Below are positions 4,012 to 62,364 of a stretch of 64,000 nucleotides of DNA, piece by piece (position 1 is the first letter of the stretch; each line of letters starts with the position of its first letter). Made by a program: the position numbers and the translations under genes. Under the pieces are notes generated by a model. The model saw nothing but the letters and a program-made list of their open reading frames with translations. It had not been told where the DNA came from and searched no databases. Origin of the DNA: Citrifermentans bemidjiense Bem (GTDB lineage Bacteria; Desulfobacterota; Desulfuromonadia; Geobacterales; Geobacteraceae); NCBI RefSeq assembly GCF_000020725.1, contig NC_011146.1:4468001-4532000 (forward strand), given 5' to 3'.

Positions 4012-5592
4012 TTAGCTATGCTCGCGGGTGGCGTGGAAGGTGAGATCCTTCCAGTTCTCCATGGTGTTGTCGAGACGCCACTGGCTTCCCGCCAGGTAAG
4101 CGAGGTTCCCTTCGCCGTCCTGGTAGAGGCTCAGCGCCTCTTTTTTCTGGAAATCGTCGAGCTTCTTCCTCTCGCCGGTGACCCAGCGCGCGGTGACGTA
4201 GGATACCGGCTCATAGACGGCCTTGACGCCGTACTCGTGCTCCAGCCGGTGCATGACGACATCGAACTGCAGCATCCCTACCGCGCCGACAATCCAGTCC
4301 GCACCCATGAGAGGCCGGAACACCTGGGTTGTTCCCTCCTCCGCCAGTTGCACCAGCCCTTTTTCCAGCGACTTCGACTTGAGCGGGTTGAGGATGCGCA
4401 CCTTCCTGAAGTGCTCGGGGGCGAAATTCGGGATGCCGGTGTACTTAAGCTCCTCCCCCTGGGTGAAGGTGTCGCCTATCTTTATGGTGCCGTGGTTGTG
4501 GATACCTATGATGTCGCCGGCGTAGGCCTCGTCGACGTTGGTGCGGTCCTGCGCCATGAAGATGGTCGCGTTGGAGATCTGCACCTCGCGCCCGAGCCTT
4601 AAATGCTTCACCTTCATGCCACGCACGAACTTGCCGGAGCAGATCCTGAAGAAGGCGATGCGGTCGCGGTGCGCCGGGTCCATGTTCGCCTGGATCTTGA
4701 AGGTGAACCCAGTGAACGGCTCCTCGTAGGGGGAGACGGTGCGAGAGGTGGCTTCGCGCGGCAACGGCGAGGGGGCGTTATCCACGAAGGAGTCGAGCAG
4801 CTGCTGCACCCCGAAGGTGTTGATGGCAGAGCCGAAGAAAACCGGGGTCTGCTTGCCGGCCAGGTAGGCCTCGGCGTCGAAGGGGTGCGCAGCGCCCTCG
4901 AGCAGTTCCACGTCGTTACGCAGCTCCTCGACCTGGCTTCCCAAGAGTTCGTCGAGCAGCGGGTCGTCAAGTCCCTTTACAGTGACCACCTGCCCCACGC
5001 CGCGATCGGCCTCTGGATCGTAGAAGGTAATTTCCTTAGTATATAAATGGTAGGTGCCGCGGAAGCGTTTCCCCATCCCTATGGGCCAGGTCATCGGCGC
5101 GCACTGGATGTTGAGCGTGCTTTCGATGTCGTCCAGAAGGTCCAGCGGCTCGCGCCCCTCGCGGTCCAGCTTGTTGATGAAGGTCATGATGGGGGTGTGG
5201 CGCAGCCGGCAGACTTCGAGGAGTTTTTTGGTCTGGCTTTCCACCCCCTTCACGGAATCTATCACCATGAGCACAGAGTCTACGGCGGTAAGGGTCCGGT
5301 AAGTGTCTTCGGAAAAGTCGTTGTGGCCCGGGGTATCCAGCAGGTTGATCTCGAAATCGCGGTAGGTGAATTTCATTACTGAGGAGGTTACAGAAATGCC
5401 GCGCTGCTTCTCCATCTCCATCCAGTCACTGGTGGCATGGCGCGCCGATTTCCTTGCCCGCACCTCGCCCGCCTGCTGAATCGCCCCGCCAAAAAGGAGC
5501 AATTTCTCCGTTATGGTGGTTTTACCGGCGTCAGGGTGGCTGATGATAGCGAAGGTGCGACGCCTTTGTATCTCTTGCTCGTTGTACCGCAT
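4012..5592 (-). CDS. prfC: Peptide chain release factor 3
   Basis: A 526-residue translational GTPase that recycles RF1 and RF2 from the ribosome after stop-codon reading. G motifs are clear: G1 SHPDAGKTT near residue 18, G2 region [11 protein letters not shown]3 DTPGHNDF and G4 NKLD. The length fits the family (about 525-530) and separates it from EF-G (about 690), since domains IV and V of EF-G are absent. It is a single gene divergent from the PilZ gene. Confidence 0.95.
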
Positions 5593-56686: not shown

Positions 56687-56875
56687 GAAATGACGTATTA
56701 TTTGGTGAATATGTCATTTTTGAATCCAAAAGTGACGCATTTGAAAAAAATGTGTCGTTTTTGAACTCGAATATGACGTTTTTGAATCCGAATATGTCAT
56801 TTTTGAGTCCGAATATGACGTATTTGAATTCAAAAATGACACATTTGAAAAAAAATACGACGTTTTCGCTCCGGA
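56687..56875. repeat. Nine tandem 21-base units
   Basis: A unit of roughly AATATGACGTTTTTGAATCC is repeated nine times without gaps. Because 21 is a multiple of three, all frames remain open, giving heptad-like peptides (for instance NMTFLNP on one strand). Short frames across it on both strands are therefore not good evidence for a gene. No ribosome site matches either. Confidence 0.8.
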
Positions 56876-57058
56876 TAAGCATTTCCCTGGGCCTGTTGAA
56901 TCCTTCGTGTAAATGGCCAGCGTTACCGGTCCGCAAGAACATGATCTCCACCCGGCGGTCCGGCAACCGGCTGTGAAAACTGCTGCAGCTGCGCCAGGTT
57001 GCGGGTACAGGCGCATGGGAAAATTCGCCGGGCGGGGAAGAAAATTTAGAAAATTTTG

Positions 57059-57086
57059 TTGACAATTCCTCATCGACAGGTATTAT
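57059..57086 (+). promoter_or_regulatory. Sigma-70 promoter for the riboswitch-ldt-lpp-ldt unit
   Basis: TTGACA at 57059-57064 is perfect, 16 bases follow, then TATTAT at 57081-57086. Transcription should start near 57093, directly before the first aptamer. Confidence 0.75.
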
Positions 57087-57101
57087 CCCCGCAACTTAAA
57101 C

Positions 57102-57184
57102 CTAGATAGACGATAATACTCAACCATCCGCGAGGATGGGGCGGAAAGCCTATAGGGTCTCACCGAGACAGCCGGGTTGCCGAA
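57102..57184 (+). promoter_or_regulatory. GEMM-I riboswitch 1, predicted cyclic GMP-AMP type
   Basis: The fold has a P2 stem CCATCC/GGATGG closed by a GCGA (GNRA) loop, the GCGGAAAGCC ligand-site core, a short P3 GTCTC/GAGAC, and GCCGGGTTGCCG, as in the GEMM-I consensus. Aligned to Vibrio Vc2, the base that pairs with one ligand guanine (G20) is A at 57118; the neighbouring pair G21-C46 is C57119-G57144. An A at this place is known to favour cyclic GMP-AMP in Geobacter. The aptamer 3' strand is also the 5' arm of the terminator at 57171-57215. Confidence 0.88.
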
Positions 57185-57215
57185 ATATCACAGATATTCG
57201 GTCCCGGCTTTTTTT
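57171..57215 (+). terminator. Riboswitch 1 expression-platform terminator
   Basis: GCCGGG (57171-57176) pairs with CCCGGC (57203-57208), with inner CCGAA/TTCGG pairing, followed by seven T. Its 5' arm is part of the aptamer, so ligand binding should disrupt it and turn expression on. Confidence 0.85.
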
Positions 57216-57293
57216 GTGTCCATTGATCAAGTGGGGGGCAAGTCGCAGGAGGCGCCTTGAAGGGCGCGGGCATGATGTAAAAACGGTGGTGGT

Positions 57294-57370
57294 ACACGAT
57301 AATACTCAACCATCCGCGAGGATGGGGCGGAAAGCCTATTGGGTCTCTCTGAGACAGCCGGGTTGCCGAA
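57294..57370 (+). promoter_or_regulatory. GEMM-I riboswitch 2, predicted cyclic GMP-AMP type
   Basis: Nearly identical to riboswitch 1: the core from ACGATAATACTCAACC to GGCGGAAAGCCTAT is the same, P3 is GTCTC/GAGAC with a different loop. The specificity base is A57304 and the compensating pair is C57305-G57330. It ends in its own terminator (57357-57402). Two serial switches would need both to be ligand-bound for full readthrough. Confidence 0.87.
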
Positions 57371-57402
57371 ATATCACACGATATCGGCTCCCGGCTTTTT
57401 TT
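57357..57402 (+). terminator. Riboswitch 2 expression-platform terminator
   Basis: GCCGGG at 57357-57362 pairs with CCCGGC at 57390-57395, with an inner GCCGA/TCGGC extension, then seven T. Same overlap with the aptamer as in copy 1. Confidence 0.85.
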
Positions 57403-57621
57403 GTGCCCCGAATCCCGGAACGTTCAACGGGGAATCAGGAGAAATTCCGGGAGCGTCGCTCTCGGTCCCCCCCCTTCAGTTCCATATGTTGCAGCTTCAC
57501 CCACCCCCCGTCCCCCTCCCATCAAGGGAGGGGGGGATACGAGGTGGGCCGCCGCCAAAGAGCAAACCCGGTAAGGGTTCCCGAACCCCTTAACCGCCTG
57601 TGAGGAAAGGGCAGTTCCAGC
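57403..57621. other. Leader between riboswitch 2 and the first ldt gene
   Basis: No gene. The part at 57489-57533 is a TTGCAGCTTCACCC plus CCCTCCC/GGGAGGG palindrome repeated almost exactly at 62115-62160. A GAGGAAAGG ribosome site precedes the start at 57622. Confidence 0.5.
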
Positions 57622-58944
57622 ATGCATCGAATTTTAGATCCGCCAATCATCGAAAAAGCTCTTCGTCTTCTGTTTCTCTGCGCTCTCGTCCTGTTTCTCA
57701 ACGGATGTGTCGCCATGCAGAGGGCTCCCGAGCAATCGTTGCTACCGCCGGTTCCCACGCAAAAGGAGATCGAGCGGAACGTCTTCCCGGTAGCCGGAGG
57801 TGATGACGTGATCGGCACCTTGGCAGTGGTGAGGCTTGAAAAGGGGGACACCCTGCCCGACATCGCCAGACACTTTAGCCTTGGGATCAACGCAATCAGC
57901 GCTGCCAACCCAGGTGTCGATGTATGGGTCCCTGAACCGGGAAAGGAGGTCATCCTCCCTTTGAGTTTCATCCTCCCGGATGCTCCCCGGAAAGGCATCG
58001 TGATCAACTTGGCCACCATGCGGCTTTTCCGTTTCAAGGAAGATGGTAAAGCGCAAGTGGTGTCGACCTACCCTGTCGGTGTCGGCACCGCGGAGCGCCC
58101 GACGCCTACAGGCAAAATGCGCATTGAACGCAAGACTGCCCTGCCCACTTGGCACGTACCCGCTTCAATTGCCGAGGATCATAGGAAAAAAGGAGATCTT
58201 CTCCCCGCGAAGGTTCCGCCGGGACCTGAGAACCCTTTGGGTGAGCGCGCGCTTTACCTGAGCAAAGCGGGGTATCTGATTCATGGCACCAACAAGCCGG
58301 CCAGCATAGGTCTTAAGGCAACAAACGGGTGCCTGCGGCTCTACCCCGAGAATGTGACGACGCTTTACGAGGAGACGCCGGTCAATACCCCGGTACTCAT
58401 CGTCAACCAGCCGTATCTAGTGGGGCAACGGGATGGGGTCCTTTATCTTGAGGCTCATGCGCCCCTGGAAAGCTCTGGTGCCCTGGAGTTGGAGAAGGTG
58501 ACGGCAAGACTGAGGAAGTGGGAAAAGAGGTACGGACGCTCACTTGACTGGGAAAAAATCCGTAAAGTGCAAACCGAGGCCAGAGGTGTCCCTGTCCCCA
58601 TCTTGGCCTTTGGTCAGGATAAGGCAAAAGATAGCCTGAAGACCGTTAACGTCGAGCGCCCGCTACAAATGTTCGGCGCGCCTGAGGTACCCGAGCTCAA
58701 ACGGGATGCCTGGTATGTTTTGGCTGCCAATGTGGGCGGGGAGATCGAGGCTCGGAGGCTGGCAGCCATTATCAACCACCAGGGGCCGCCCATCCCGGCA
58801 CGGGTGCTGCCGCAAAGCAGCAATAGCTACCATGTCATCGCCGGTCCTTTCGATAACGCCGGCTTGGCCAAAGAGGCGGTCAGGCGGCTGAAGCTCGACC
58901 TGGAACTCGACGGCATAGTGATAGACCCGGTCAAGAAGATATAG
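57622..58944 (+). CDS. YkuD L,D-transpeptidase lipoprotein with SPOR-like end
   Basis: 440 residues. The signal ends in a lipobox FLNGC, so it is a lipoprotein. A LysM-like segment (about 60-115; LEKGDTLPDIARHFSLGINAISAANPGVD) precedes the YkuD domain (about 130-260) with catalytic IHGTN and ATNGCLRL (His and Cys of the HX14-17-S/T-x-GC motif). The C-terminal 80 residues resemble SPOR peptidoglycan-binding repeats (WYVLAANVGGEIEARRLAAI). It would form 3-3 crosslinks or attach a lipoprotein to peptidoglycan. First gene behind the tandem riboswitch. Confidence 0.88.
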   Translation: MHRILDPPIIEKALRLLFLCALVLFLNGCVAMQRAPEQSLLPPVPTQKEIERNVFPVAGGDDVIGTLAVVRLEKGDTLPDIARHFSLGINAISAANPGVDVWVPEPGKEVILPLSFILPDAPRKGIVINLATMRLFRFKEDGKAQVVSTYPVGVGTAERPTPTGKMRIERKTALPTWHVPASIAEDHRKKGDLLPAKVPPGPENPLGERALYLSKAGYLIHGTNKPASIGLKATNGCLRLYPENVTTLYEETPVNTPVLIVNQPYLVGQRDGVLYLEAHAPLESSGALELEKVTARLRKWEKRYGRSLDWEKIRKVQTEARGVPVPILAFGQDKAKDSLKTVNVERPLQMFGAPEVPELKRDAWYVLAANVGGEIEARRLAAIINHQGPPIPARVLPQSSNSYHVIAGPFDNAGLAKEAVRRLKLDLELDGIVIDPVKKI

Positions 58945-58985
58945 GTGTTCCTGTCTGCGCCATGTGCAGGGGGGATGTTGTGAAC

Positions 58986-59003
58986 TTCACGCCAATGCGT
59001 GAA
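58986..59003 (+). other. Small hairpin between ldt1 and lpp
   Basis: TTCACGC and GCGTGAA pair around CAAT. No T-run, so more likely an RNA-processing or stability element than a full terminator. The lpp ribosome site AAAGGAGGTAAT follows. Confidence 0.5.
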
Positions 59004-59032
59004 TAAACCCGCAATAAAGGAGGTAATCAGTT

Positions 59033-59398
59033 ATGAAAAAAGGTGCGCTGTTGATCACGATGTTGTTGGTTTCGGCTGTTACCATGGCAGGATGTGCGAC
59101 ATCCGGGGACCTCGCGAGAGTGGAGACCCAGGAAAGGGCGCTCGGCGCTAAGGCCGATCAGGCGTTGCAGGAAGCACAGGCTGCCAAGGCCACGGCGGAT
59201 GCGGCTAAGACACAGGCCGATGCCGCAGCACTCCGCGCAGAAAACGCGGCCAAAGCTGCAGAGGAAAGAGAAAGGCTCGCAGCTGAGAAGGAAAAGCTTG
59301 CCGCAGAGAAGGAGCAGGCCGCCGCAGAGCGGGAAAAAGTGGCAAATGAAAAGGGAGAGAGGGCTGATGCCGCTTTCTACAAGTCGATGAGGAAGTAG
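59033..59398 (+). CDS. Braun-lipoprotein-like (Lpp) protein
   Basis: 121 residues. A signal peptide with lipobox TMAGC (Cys at about residue 21) is followed by a long Ala/Glu/Lys-rich coiled coil (about 30-108; repeated AEKEKLAAEKEQ), and a short end finishing in RK. E. coli Lpp also ends in Arg-Lys, the terminal Lys being linked to peptidoglycan by YkuD enzymes. Here the two flanking genes both encode YkuD proteins. The coiled coil is longer than in E. coli Lpp (78 residues in total precursor). Function as a wall-anchored lipoprotein is inferred. Confidence 0.8.
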   Translation: MKKGALLITMLLVSAVTMAGCATSGDLARVETQERALGAKADQALQEAQAAKATADAAKTQADAAALRAENAAKAAEERERLAAEKEKLAAEKEQAAAEREKVANEKGERADAAFYKSMRK

Positions 59399-59541
59399 AT
59401 TTGCTTCAACGCAAGCTCCAGCTTGCCATCCGTGGGAAGCTGGAGCTTCGTCCTGCATTGCGTTCCCAAGGTGGACCTTGGGAACGAGATACATCTCCCC
59501 CCTTTGCAAAGGGGAACGTAGGGGATTTCTTGGGCGAAGGG
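59399..59541 (+). repeat. Two perfect inverted repeats between lpp and ldt2
   Basis: AAGCTCCAGCTT (59413-59424) faces AAGCTGGAGCTT (59437-59448), and CGTTCCCAAG (59461-59470) faces CTTGGGAACG (59477-59486). Both look like common genomic palindromes. They may lower expression of the second ldt relative to lpp. Confidence 0.75.
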
Positions 59542-60537
59542 ATGAGGGAAGTGAGAAGAGTAAGCAGAAATTGGGAGCAGCTTTGCCTTTTTGTTGTGCT
59601 CGCTACGATACTTTTTACCGCGGGGGGGTGCAGCCATCTTGACGGAACCTTCGGGGCCGGATCGGCATTCGAAGAAGCAAATCGCCATTCCGTCCTGCGA
59701 GATTACCAGGCTGCGCTGAAGGGGTACGAACTGGCCTCGAAGAAGTATCCCACGACCGGGGACAGGGCTTTATTCGAGATGGGCATCATCCACTCTCATC
59801 CGGACAACCCGCAGAAGGACTATGGCAAAGCGCTGGATTGCTATCGAACCTTGATAAAGGAGTATCCCCGCAGCAGCTACAGGCAGGACAGCGAGATGAT
59901 GGTTTTTTACCTCGTCAACGTGACCATCAAGGACAAGCTAATCGACTCACAGAGAAACGAAATCGAGGTGCTTCAGCGAGAGGTCCAGAACCAGCGCCAG
60001 GAGGCAAGAGCCCTGCAGCTGGAGATCGAGAAGAAGGTGGGTGAAATTGCGGTTCTGCAACAAGAGATTGCGGCACAGGAAGAAGAGATCTCTCCGCCTC
60101 CAGTGCCGACGGGACCGGCGGACAAGGTACTGATAGAAAAGAAGGAACGTCGCTTGACCTTGTTGTCGAAGGGTGAGGTGATCAAAAGCTATAAGATCTC
60201 GCTCGGGGAAAACCCGAATGGCCCCAAGGAGAGGCAGGGCGACAACAAGACTCCTGAGGGGATCTACCGCATCGATTCGAGAAACAACGACAGCCAGTAT
60301 CACCTCTCCCTTCATATCTCCTACCCCAACGAGCAGGACAAAAAGCGAGCGAAGCAACTGGGCGTTGCTCCCGGCGGCAACATCATGATTCACGGCATGC
60401 GGAATGGCTTCTCGTGGTTTGGGGAGCACCACACCTTGATTGACTGGACCAAGGGGTGCATAGCGGTAACGGACGAGGAAATACAGGAGATCGCAGAATT
60501 AGTACCAATCGGGACTGTCGTCGAGATAATGCCGTAG
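59542..60537 (+). CDS. Second YkuD-domain lipoprotein (YafK-like)
   Basis: 331 residues from the ATG at 59542; this start gives a lipoprotein signal ending TAGGC. TPR-like helices (about 45-120), a coiled coil (about 135-185; RNEIEVLQREVQNQRQEARA) and a YkuD domain (about 200-330) follow. The catalytic region is MIHGMRNG and DWTKGCIAVTDEEI. The DWTxGCIAV form is typical of YafK-like members. In E. coli one such enzyme removes Lpp from peptidoglycan, so this may be the releasing partner or a second attaching enzyme. The frame upstream of 59542 lies in repeats. Confidence 0.85.
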   Translation: MREVRRVSRNWEQLCLFVVLATILFTAGGCSHLDGTFGAGSAFEEANRHSVLRDYQAALKGYELASKKYPTTGDRALFEMGIIHSHPDNPQKDYGKALDCYRTLIKEYPRSSYRQDSEMMVFYLVNVTIKDKLIDSQRNEIEVLQREVQNQRQEARALQLEIEKKVGEIAVLQQEIAAQEEEISPPPVPTGPADKVLIEKKERRLTLLSKGEVIKSYKISLGENPNGPKERQGDNKTPEGIYRIDSRNNDSQYHLSLHISYPNEQDKKRAKQLGVAPGGNIMIHGMRNGFSWFGEHHTLIDWTKGCIAVTDEEIQEIAELVPIGTVVEIMP

Positions 60538-61890: not shown

Positions 61891-62364
61891 TCGGGTTCCC
61901 CACTCGGAGCGGTTTCACTTAAATGCGCGAAAGTACCAGAGAGAAGCTATCAGATGCGGTGCGTGTTTCAAGCAAAATTCAGGGGATAGACAAATCGACA
62001 CTGCCCCTCTTTGTAAAGGGTCATAGGAAATGCCGGGGAAAACCGCTATTGGTCCCCCCTCCCCTTGCGGGAGGGGGTTAGGGGGTGGGGAAAGGTGCGA
62101 TCATTTCCGTACTTTGCAGCTTCACCCACCCCCCGTCCCCCTCCCGTCAAGGGAGGGGGGAACTCTTCTCCCCGGAATTCTCGGATGAACCTTTGTAAAG
62201 GGGGGAGGGTTAGGGAGCGTGGAGAAGTGGCTAAGGGGGACAGGCACCTGCGGAGCCAGTCCCCCAGCTGGAGCGTTGGGTTCATAATTAGTTTCCACCG
62301 CCCCCGGTTTGTGCTAGTTATGTAGGACATTTCCAACCGTCTGTTCCCGCCAAGGAGGTTGACC
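61891..62364. other. Repeat-rich gap upstream of the selenoprotein gene
   Basis: No supported gene in 474 bases. The GC-rich palindromes at 62052-62096 and 62115-62160 match those near 25026 and 57489. A promoter for the selenoprotein gene should lie after 62270; GTGCTAGTTATGT near 62310 is a possible -10 area, but no good -35 was seen. Confidence 0.5.

Follow-up and report, generated by a model that had tools for sequence, protein, structure and literature searches.

Two near-identical riboswitch aptamers stand one behind the other ahead of a group of cell-wall genes in the metal-reducing soil bacterium Citrifermentans bemidjiense Bem (earlier Geobacter bemidjiensis), which raises the question of what ligand they answer and what is gained by having two of them. 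The window, as we call the whole stretch of DNA analysed, comprised 64,000 nucleotides (positions 4,468,001 to 4,532,000 of contig NC_011146.1). A reading of its letters without database searches (the sequence-only reading) had proposed tandem GEMM-I riboswitches for cyclic GMP-AMP (cGAMP). The covariance model of Rfam family RF01051 (c-di-GMP-I) recovered both aptamers at full length and above its gathering cut-off of 35 bits (Table 1), and the same search gave no matches in 14 control genomes. The two copies were identical in 74 of 78 bases, with four differences and 186 bases from start to start, and had the GCGA-capped P2 and the GCGGAAAGCC core which the sequence-only reading had pointed out. 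According to our analysis, these are very probably two GEMM-Ib transcriptional ON switches in series, responsive to cGAMP and placed in the leader of an L,D-transpeptidase operon. The presence of GEMM riboswitches in this genome was already reported in the accessible part of PMC2996986. Two open reading frames (155 and 84 aa) cross the switches and were taken as chance frames.

Table 1. Features of the tandem riboswitch locus and the genes behind it (positions within the window)
Feature	Position	Strand	Basis
Sigma-70-type promoter-like site, TTGACA-16-TATTAT	57059..57086	+	11/12 consensus matches
P1 5' strand, copy 1 (GAUA), partner UAUC 57186-57189	57105..57108	+	Fold; pair counts in 52 modules; letters
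Aptamer 1, c-di-GMP-I/GEMM-I fold, A-type (GEMM-Ib-like)	57108..57184	+	RF01051, 41.9 bits
Specificity base A, aptamer 1 (Vc2 G20 position)	57118	+	Alignment to RF01051 and own-genome aptamers
Intrinsic terminator 1; AGCCGGG and UAUC common to aptamer	57170..57215	+	-22.3 kcal/mol, z -5.18; T7
Spacer between copies, partly alike in sequence and length among doublets compared	57218..57293	+	Comparison
Proposed P1 5' strand, copy 2 (GUGGUA), partner UAUCAC 57372-57377	57289..57294	+	Pair counts in 52 modules
Aptamer 2, c-di-GMP-I/GEMM-I fold, A-type (GEMM-Ib-like)	57294..57370	+	RF01051, 43.6 bits
Specificity base A, aptamer 2	57304	+	Alignment to RF01051 and own-genome aptamers
Intrinsic terminator 2	57356..57402	+	-24.4 kcal/mol, z -5.17; T7
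Gene 1, lipoprotein L,D-transpeptidase (YkuD + SPOR; lipobox-like LNGC by eye)	57622..58944	+	ORF; Pfam
Gene 2, alanine-zipper (Lpp-like) lipoprotein	59033..59398	+	ORF; PF11839
Gene 3, second YkuD L,D-transpeptidase, lipobox-like by eye	59542..60537	+	ORF; PF03734 from 59587

The RF01051 search of the whole genome gave 14 matches above the cut-off. A model built from these 14 found the same 14 again, as it must, together with one weaker site. When the 14 aptamers were aligned, 92.4% of the 249 pair cells were paired, most of the variation fell in P2, and seven pairs had changed on both sides (1.4 in shuffles). Covariation among the aptamers of the genome backs the predicted three-helix junction of GEMM-I. 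The minimum-energy fold of copy 2 without its terminator used another P1 register, GAUA at 57298-57301 with UAUC.

The expectation of cGAMP as the ligand had been based on an A at the place of Vc2 G20. The alignment confirmed this base in both window copies and a G was seen in neither. Among the 14 aptamers of the genome, 12 had A at this place and two (L001 and L003) had G, L001 together with the classical G21-C46 pair. A C-G pair replacing G21-C46, which the sequence-only reading had described as compensating for the A, is present, but the compensation did not hold: the pair was found in 13 of the 14 aptamers and also beside G, and therefore marks the lineage and not the A. The GEMM-Ib subclass was reportedly defined by two PNAS papers of 2015. 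In 48 genomes of the family, the exact A-type core occurred 413 times and a reversed control pattern once. The G-type core occurred five times in the same genomes, and three times with one extra A; one of the five (L151) went undetected with the aptamer model and was left out of the aptamer count.

The promoter claimed ahead of both aptamers corresponds to the only promoter-like site in 56700-59100, though shuffles gave 0.9 such sites on average. In 19 of 21 doublets, the window counted, a TTGACA lay no more than 85 bases ahead of copy 1 (exceptions: L019 and L062). Just upstream of the promoter region, at 56707-56849, an array of 21/42-base AT-rich units (GAATATGACGTTTTTGAATCC-like) was observed, parts of which recur at three further sites in the genome.

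Each aptamer has a terminator hairpin of its own, as had been proposed, and each hairpin ends in a run of seven T; the mean of shuffled folds was about -10 kcal/mol. A consensus terminator scan of the region listed neither of them, probably due to the interrupted stems, so that the assignment of the terminators rests on folds and conservation. The 76-base spacer had no promoter-like site, and the window thus has two complete switches with their own platforms and no gene between them, which is how pseudo-cooperative tandems are defined.

The spacer was partly alike among doublets. In a hand-chosen sample of 20 doublets, a figure which does not stand for all doublets, spacer likeness was 0.60 over aligned columns and 0.48 with gaps. 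The corresponding values were 0.52/0.20 for the stretch between terminator 2 and the gene, 0.47/0.41 upstream of copy 1, and 0.34/0.18 for shuffled spacers. Left out of the sample were L184 (short second stretch), L015 (near copy of the window) and L016, L019, L062, L077, L083, and L088 (spacers short or unlike). RNAalifold found no consensus pair in an alignment of 18 spacers, and Rfam gave nothing near a cut-off in the spacer (a narK match on the opposite strand had an E value of 1.3). A sequence model of the spacer, searched in five genomes at E ≤ 0.001, matched this locus only, and in one genome (G033) additionally the region following copy 2; the spacer of the window itself reached an E value of 0.0175. 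On these grounds a conserved structured RNA was rejected, and the spacer is treated as locus-specific and not as a new element. Counterparts of similar length and partly similar sequence were seen elsewhere (e.g., L026 3747-3854). Between terminator 2 and the gene, a GC-rich palindromic intergenic repeat was noted at 57489-57537. It had 42 matches in the genome, itself counted (40 of 99 candidates were scored), with a further copy inside the window near 62114-62160; many multicopy sequences were reported for this genome (PMC2996986, accessible part).

The way in which the aptamers may control transcription follows from the bases which they share with the terminators. AGCCGGG of the aptamer 3' strand and UAUC of the P1 3' strand form the terminator's 5' arm and its upper stem. 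Pairing was counted in 52 modules, those of the window together with those of relatives, after the degenerate single copies L020 and L030 had been dropped. P1 was paired in 246 of 311 cells; for the terminator the figure was 702 of 829, and neither value was reached by any of the six slid controls. The two outermost P1 pairs were weak (35/52 and 25/52), and two terminator pairs modelled on window copy 2 were paired in just 4/52 each, because this copy has a one-base bulge. In folds of single copies the terminator stem appeared in every row except L017, and a T run of at least five was present in 50 of the 52 modules. In the ligand-free state, the 3' portion of the aptamer (AGCCGGG ... UAUC) would enter the terminator and RNA polymerase would halt. 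With cGAMP bound, the aptamer and P1 would keep the shared bases and the polymerase would continue. The ON direction that had been proposed agrees with this competition and with a published mechanism: the pilM cGAMP riboswitch of Geobacter metallireducens is an ON switch with mutually exclusive aptamer and terminator (accessible part of PMC9262584).

To follow the doublet among relatives, the protein search of named genome contigs (97 loci, best 80 kept) was combined with the aptamer model at E ≤ 0.01. Upstream sequence of 900 bases or more was available for 73 of the 80 loci, and less for seven. Two aptamers were found upstream of the gene in 20 of these 73 relatives, one in 12, and none in 41; since no aptamer was found at the gene in the latter, the enzyme does not need the switch. 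The specificity base was A in 39 of the 40 copies belonging to the 20 doublets. In the own genus (19 genomes), the gene was seen in only three at the threshold used. Several single aptamers at the transpeptidase gene looked altered: L017 (by fold) and L020 (by eye) had no recognisable terminator, and the cores of L020 and L030 were degenerate, an apparent decay of the switch. In L036, a third, weaker aptamer (5210-5292, 48.5 bits) was observed downstream of the transpeptidase gene; its specificity base is G, and its core differs.

Between genomes, copies at the same position were more alike (0.785) than copies at crossed positions (0.758). Within-genome label swaps produced a difference as large in 0 of 2000 cases in one run and in 1 of 2000 with another seed; after removal of three near-duplicates, with or without a 10-base flank, the count was 0 of 2000. 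For copy 1, the nearest foreign neighbour was likewise a copy 1 in 16 of 21 cases; for copy 2, such agreement in position was seen in 17 of 21. Because each copy resembles its positional counterpart, the doublet looks old. Identity of the two copies within a genome was higher still (0.813), and in the tree of copies, where 10 of 49 inner branches were well supported, several within-genome pairs appeared. We read these sequence comparisons as pointing to an old doublet that has undergone some homogenisation locally or some recent duplication.

The search for a source of the ligand gave one candidate. The genome had 22 GGDEF matches, two of them being parts of one protein. The signature motif was found in 20 GGDEF proteins, and of these L137 alone carries GHxxGS (as GHLIGS, with RYGGDEY), whose Ser occupies the Hypr signature position; L143 has Thr there, and the motif was not found in the GGDEF protein L146. 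The best PDB match of the L137 GGDEF domain was 6D9M (232 bits, next best 119), the Hypr domain of GacA from G. metallireducens. A separate protein search covered the best 120 of 5973 matches. By eye, L137 is a receiver-type protein beside hisS. It is likely a maker of cGAMP, and this GacA-like Hypr GGDEF protein would supply 3',3'-cGAMP to the switches. Together with the Rfam scores, the alignment at the specificity base, and the conservation in relatives, it supports the proposed assignment of the tandem to A-type GEMM-I (GEMM-Ib).

The ligand preference could still be broader than proposed. If the aptamers also, or mainly, answered c-di-GMP, the operon would track the total cyclic dinucleotide. 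Both ligands fall in the same Rfam class, and the OmcST riboswitch of G. sulfurreducens was reported as sensitive to both (accessible part of PMC6456294). In the published text available to us, the specificity base is described, for the c-di-GMP switch Cd1, as a selectivity factor and not a hard filter, and for a Desulfobacca aptamer an A was found to strengthen the binding of cGAMP and only perhaps to weaken that of c-di-GMP. Such a response to c-di-GMP is nevertheless improbable here, given the A in both window copies, the selectivity of about 1200 and 1600 fold for cGAMP given for two Geobacter aptamers in the same available text, and the separate G-type aptamer L001 with G21-C46, which presumably serves c-di-GMP. 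Assignment of the window aptamers to the c-di-GMP-I-GGC variant class (RF03167) is hardly credible. The bit scores in relaxed mode were slightly higher than with RF01051 (46.1 and 42.0), but stayed far under the cut-off of 59, and in the RF03167 consensus the specificity base and the A47 position (GCGAA) are both G, whereas the window carries A at each; membership was rejected.

A different doubt concerns the number of working copies, as one of the two might be a recent or decaying duplicate without regulatory effect. The near identity of the window copies, the 12 relatives with one copy, L017 without a terminator and copy 2 of L027 without a full T run would all fit this, as would the finding that, with C. 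bremense left aside, both window copies were nearest to copy 2 of L024. Both window copies have, however, kept a terminator with T7, doublets exist in 20 relatives, and the excess of same-position over cross-position identity was almost never reached by label swaps. We therefore hold a single working copy to be quite improbable and retain two cGAMP-responsive switches acting in series.

As for what two copies would do, the sequence-only reading had expected a steep, AND-like response. This was overstated: one shared ligand provides no two-input logic, and for two ideal independent gates the computed effective Hill coefficient was only 1.19, the 10-90% ligand range passing from 81-fold to 40-fold. 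The arrangement is AND-like solely in the sense that both gates open for one ligand. Computed leak and fold induction are both squared by gates in series; with a leak of 0.1 and a maximum of 0.8, induction rises from 8 to 64. A transcript passing two gates with the same ligand would have its uninduced read-through roughly squared and its induction ratio multiplied, with a slight sharpening. Because the range narrows only from 81- to 40-fold and the leak falls to its square, this model predicts reduced leak as the main gain, and the copies most likely act as leak-suppressing ON switches. The strongest terminator reached -29 kcal/mol or lower in 5 of 21 doublets and in 6 of 9 singles, a count which is uncorrected and unsafe through relatedness, so that weaker terminators in doublets were set aside, and compensation of leak by doubling is only hinted at. 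This count left out L017 (no terminator), L020 and L030 (degenerate), and L022 and L032 (short upstream).

The arrangement is not novel, as a close published precedent exists in Geobacter. According to the accessible part of PMC6456294 (eLife 2019), GSU2885 (omcAHG) of G. sulfurreducens likewise has two GEMM-Ib switches in series, termination control, and a Hypr GGDEF protein; it differs in the gene controlled (cytochromes) and was measured by RNA-seq, whereas the window tandem is known from its sequence. In the same source, RNA was lost by the second copy of the G. sulfurreducens tandem leader. The pilM switch shares the ON direction and the exclusive P1/terminator pairing, and is described as single. 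Pseudo-cooperative tandems in PMC9481103, as far as its accessible part goes, include 347 c-di-GMP-I doublets and a Bacillus thuringiensis triplet; these are also independent copies of one class with one ligand, named by the c-di-GMP class, with cGAMP doublets not listed apart.

Tandems with unlike copies were observed outside the window. Another GEMM-I tandem of this genome, on the minus strand (L013 2179112-2179188, then L003 2178925-2179000; 187 bases between starts), precedes a protein with cytochrome c domains and carries A at the specificity base of its first copy and G at that of its second. The A-then-G pair was also present in two further genomes of the genus (L153 and L154), three in all, and recurred in a fourth genome before a different gene (L147), as well as at the transpeptidase gene in Geobacter sp. 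GAC1, one genome represented twice (L033/L201); other tandems at such genes were A/A (L159, L161, and L173). The mixed-tandem copies have terminator hairpins with T runs. Those of L013/L003 were weaker than in the window (-17.7 and -15.8 kcal/mol), and the terminator of L033 copy 2 had -18.2 kcal/mol. From these sequences we tentatively suggest, as a possibility open to considerable doubt, that mixed tandems could be two-input gates for cGAMP and c-di-GMP which arose repeatedly by changes of copy 2. Against such a gate, a G within a C21-G46 core may bind both ligands, by analogy with the dual sensitivity of OmcST (PMC6456294, accessible part). The 18 rows considered from Table 2 in PMC9481103 show no pairing of c-AMP-GMP with c-di-GMP switches. 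No published tandem of these two was found by title, though the 2015 PNAS papers may mention one. If the idea is true, two-input gates would have been made from one riboswitch class by changing one copy, and if the G copies prefer c-di-GMP, mixed tandems would couple two messengers which are said to promote growth on minerals and electrodes.

The genes behind the window tandem form a putative operon of three, all with lipobox-like starts by eye; the start codon of gene 3 was chosen by hand within an ORF beginning at 59401. It resembles GSU0181-0183 of G. sulfurreducens, three locus tags described as cGAMP-dependent lipoprotein transpeptidases, in having three lipoprotein-like genes, two of them for L,D-transpeptidases. 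Deletion of gacA in G. sulfurreducens lowers the expression of genes behind GEMM-Ib switches, 16-fold for the lipoprotein-transpeptidase operon (for both, accessible part of PMC6456294). The window operon is likely the same operon as GSU0181-0183, a likeness drawn by description and not by sequence. These data add an operon with cell-wall functions (L,D-transpeptidase/lipoprotein) to the likely cGAMP regulon of a subsurface Geobacter, and an old, widely kept double gate makes the purpose of the doubling, lower leak or sharper response, testable.
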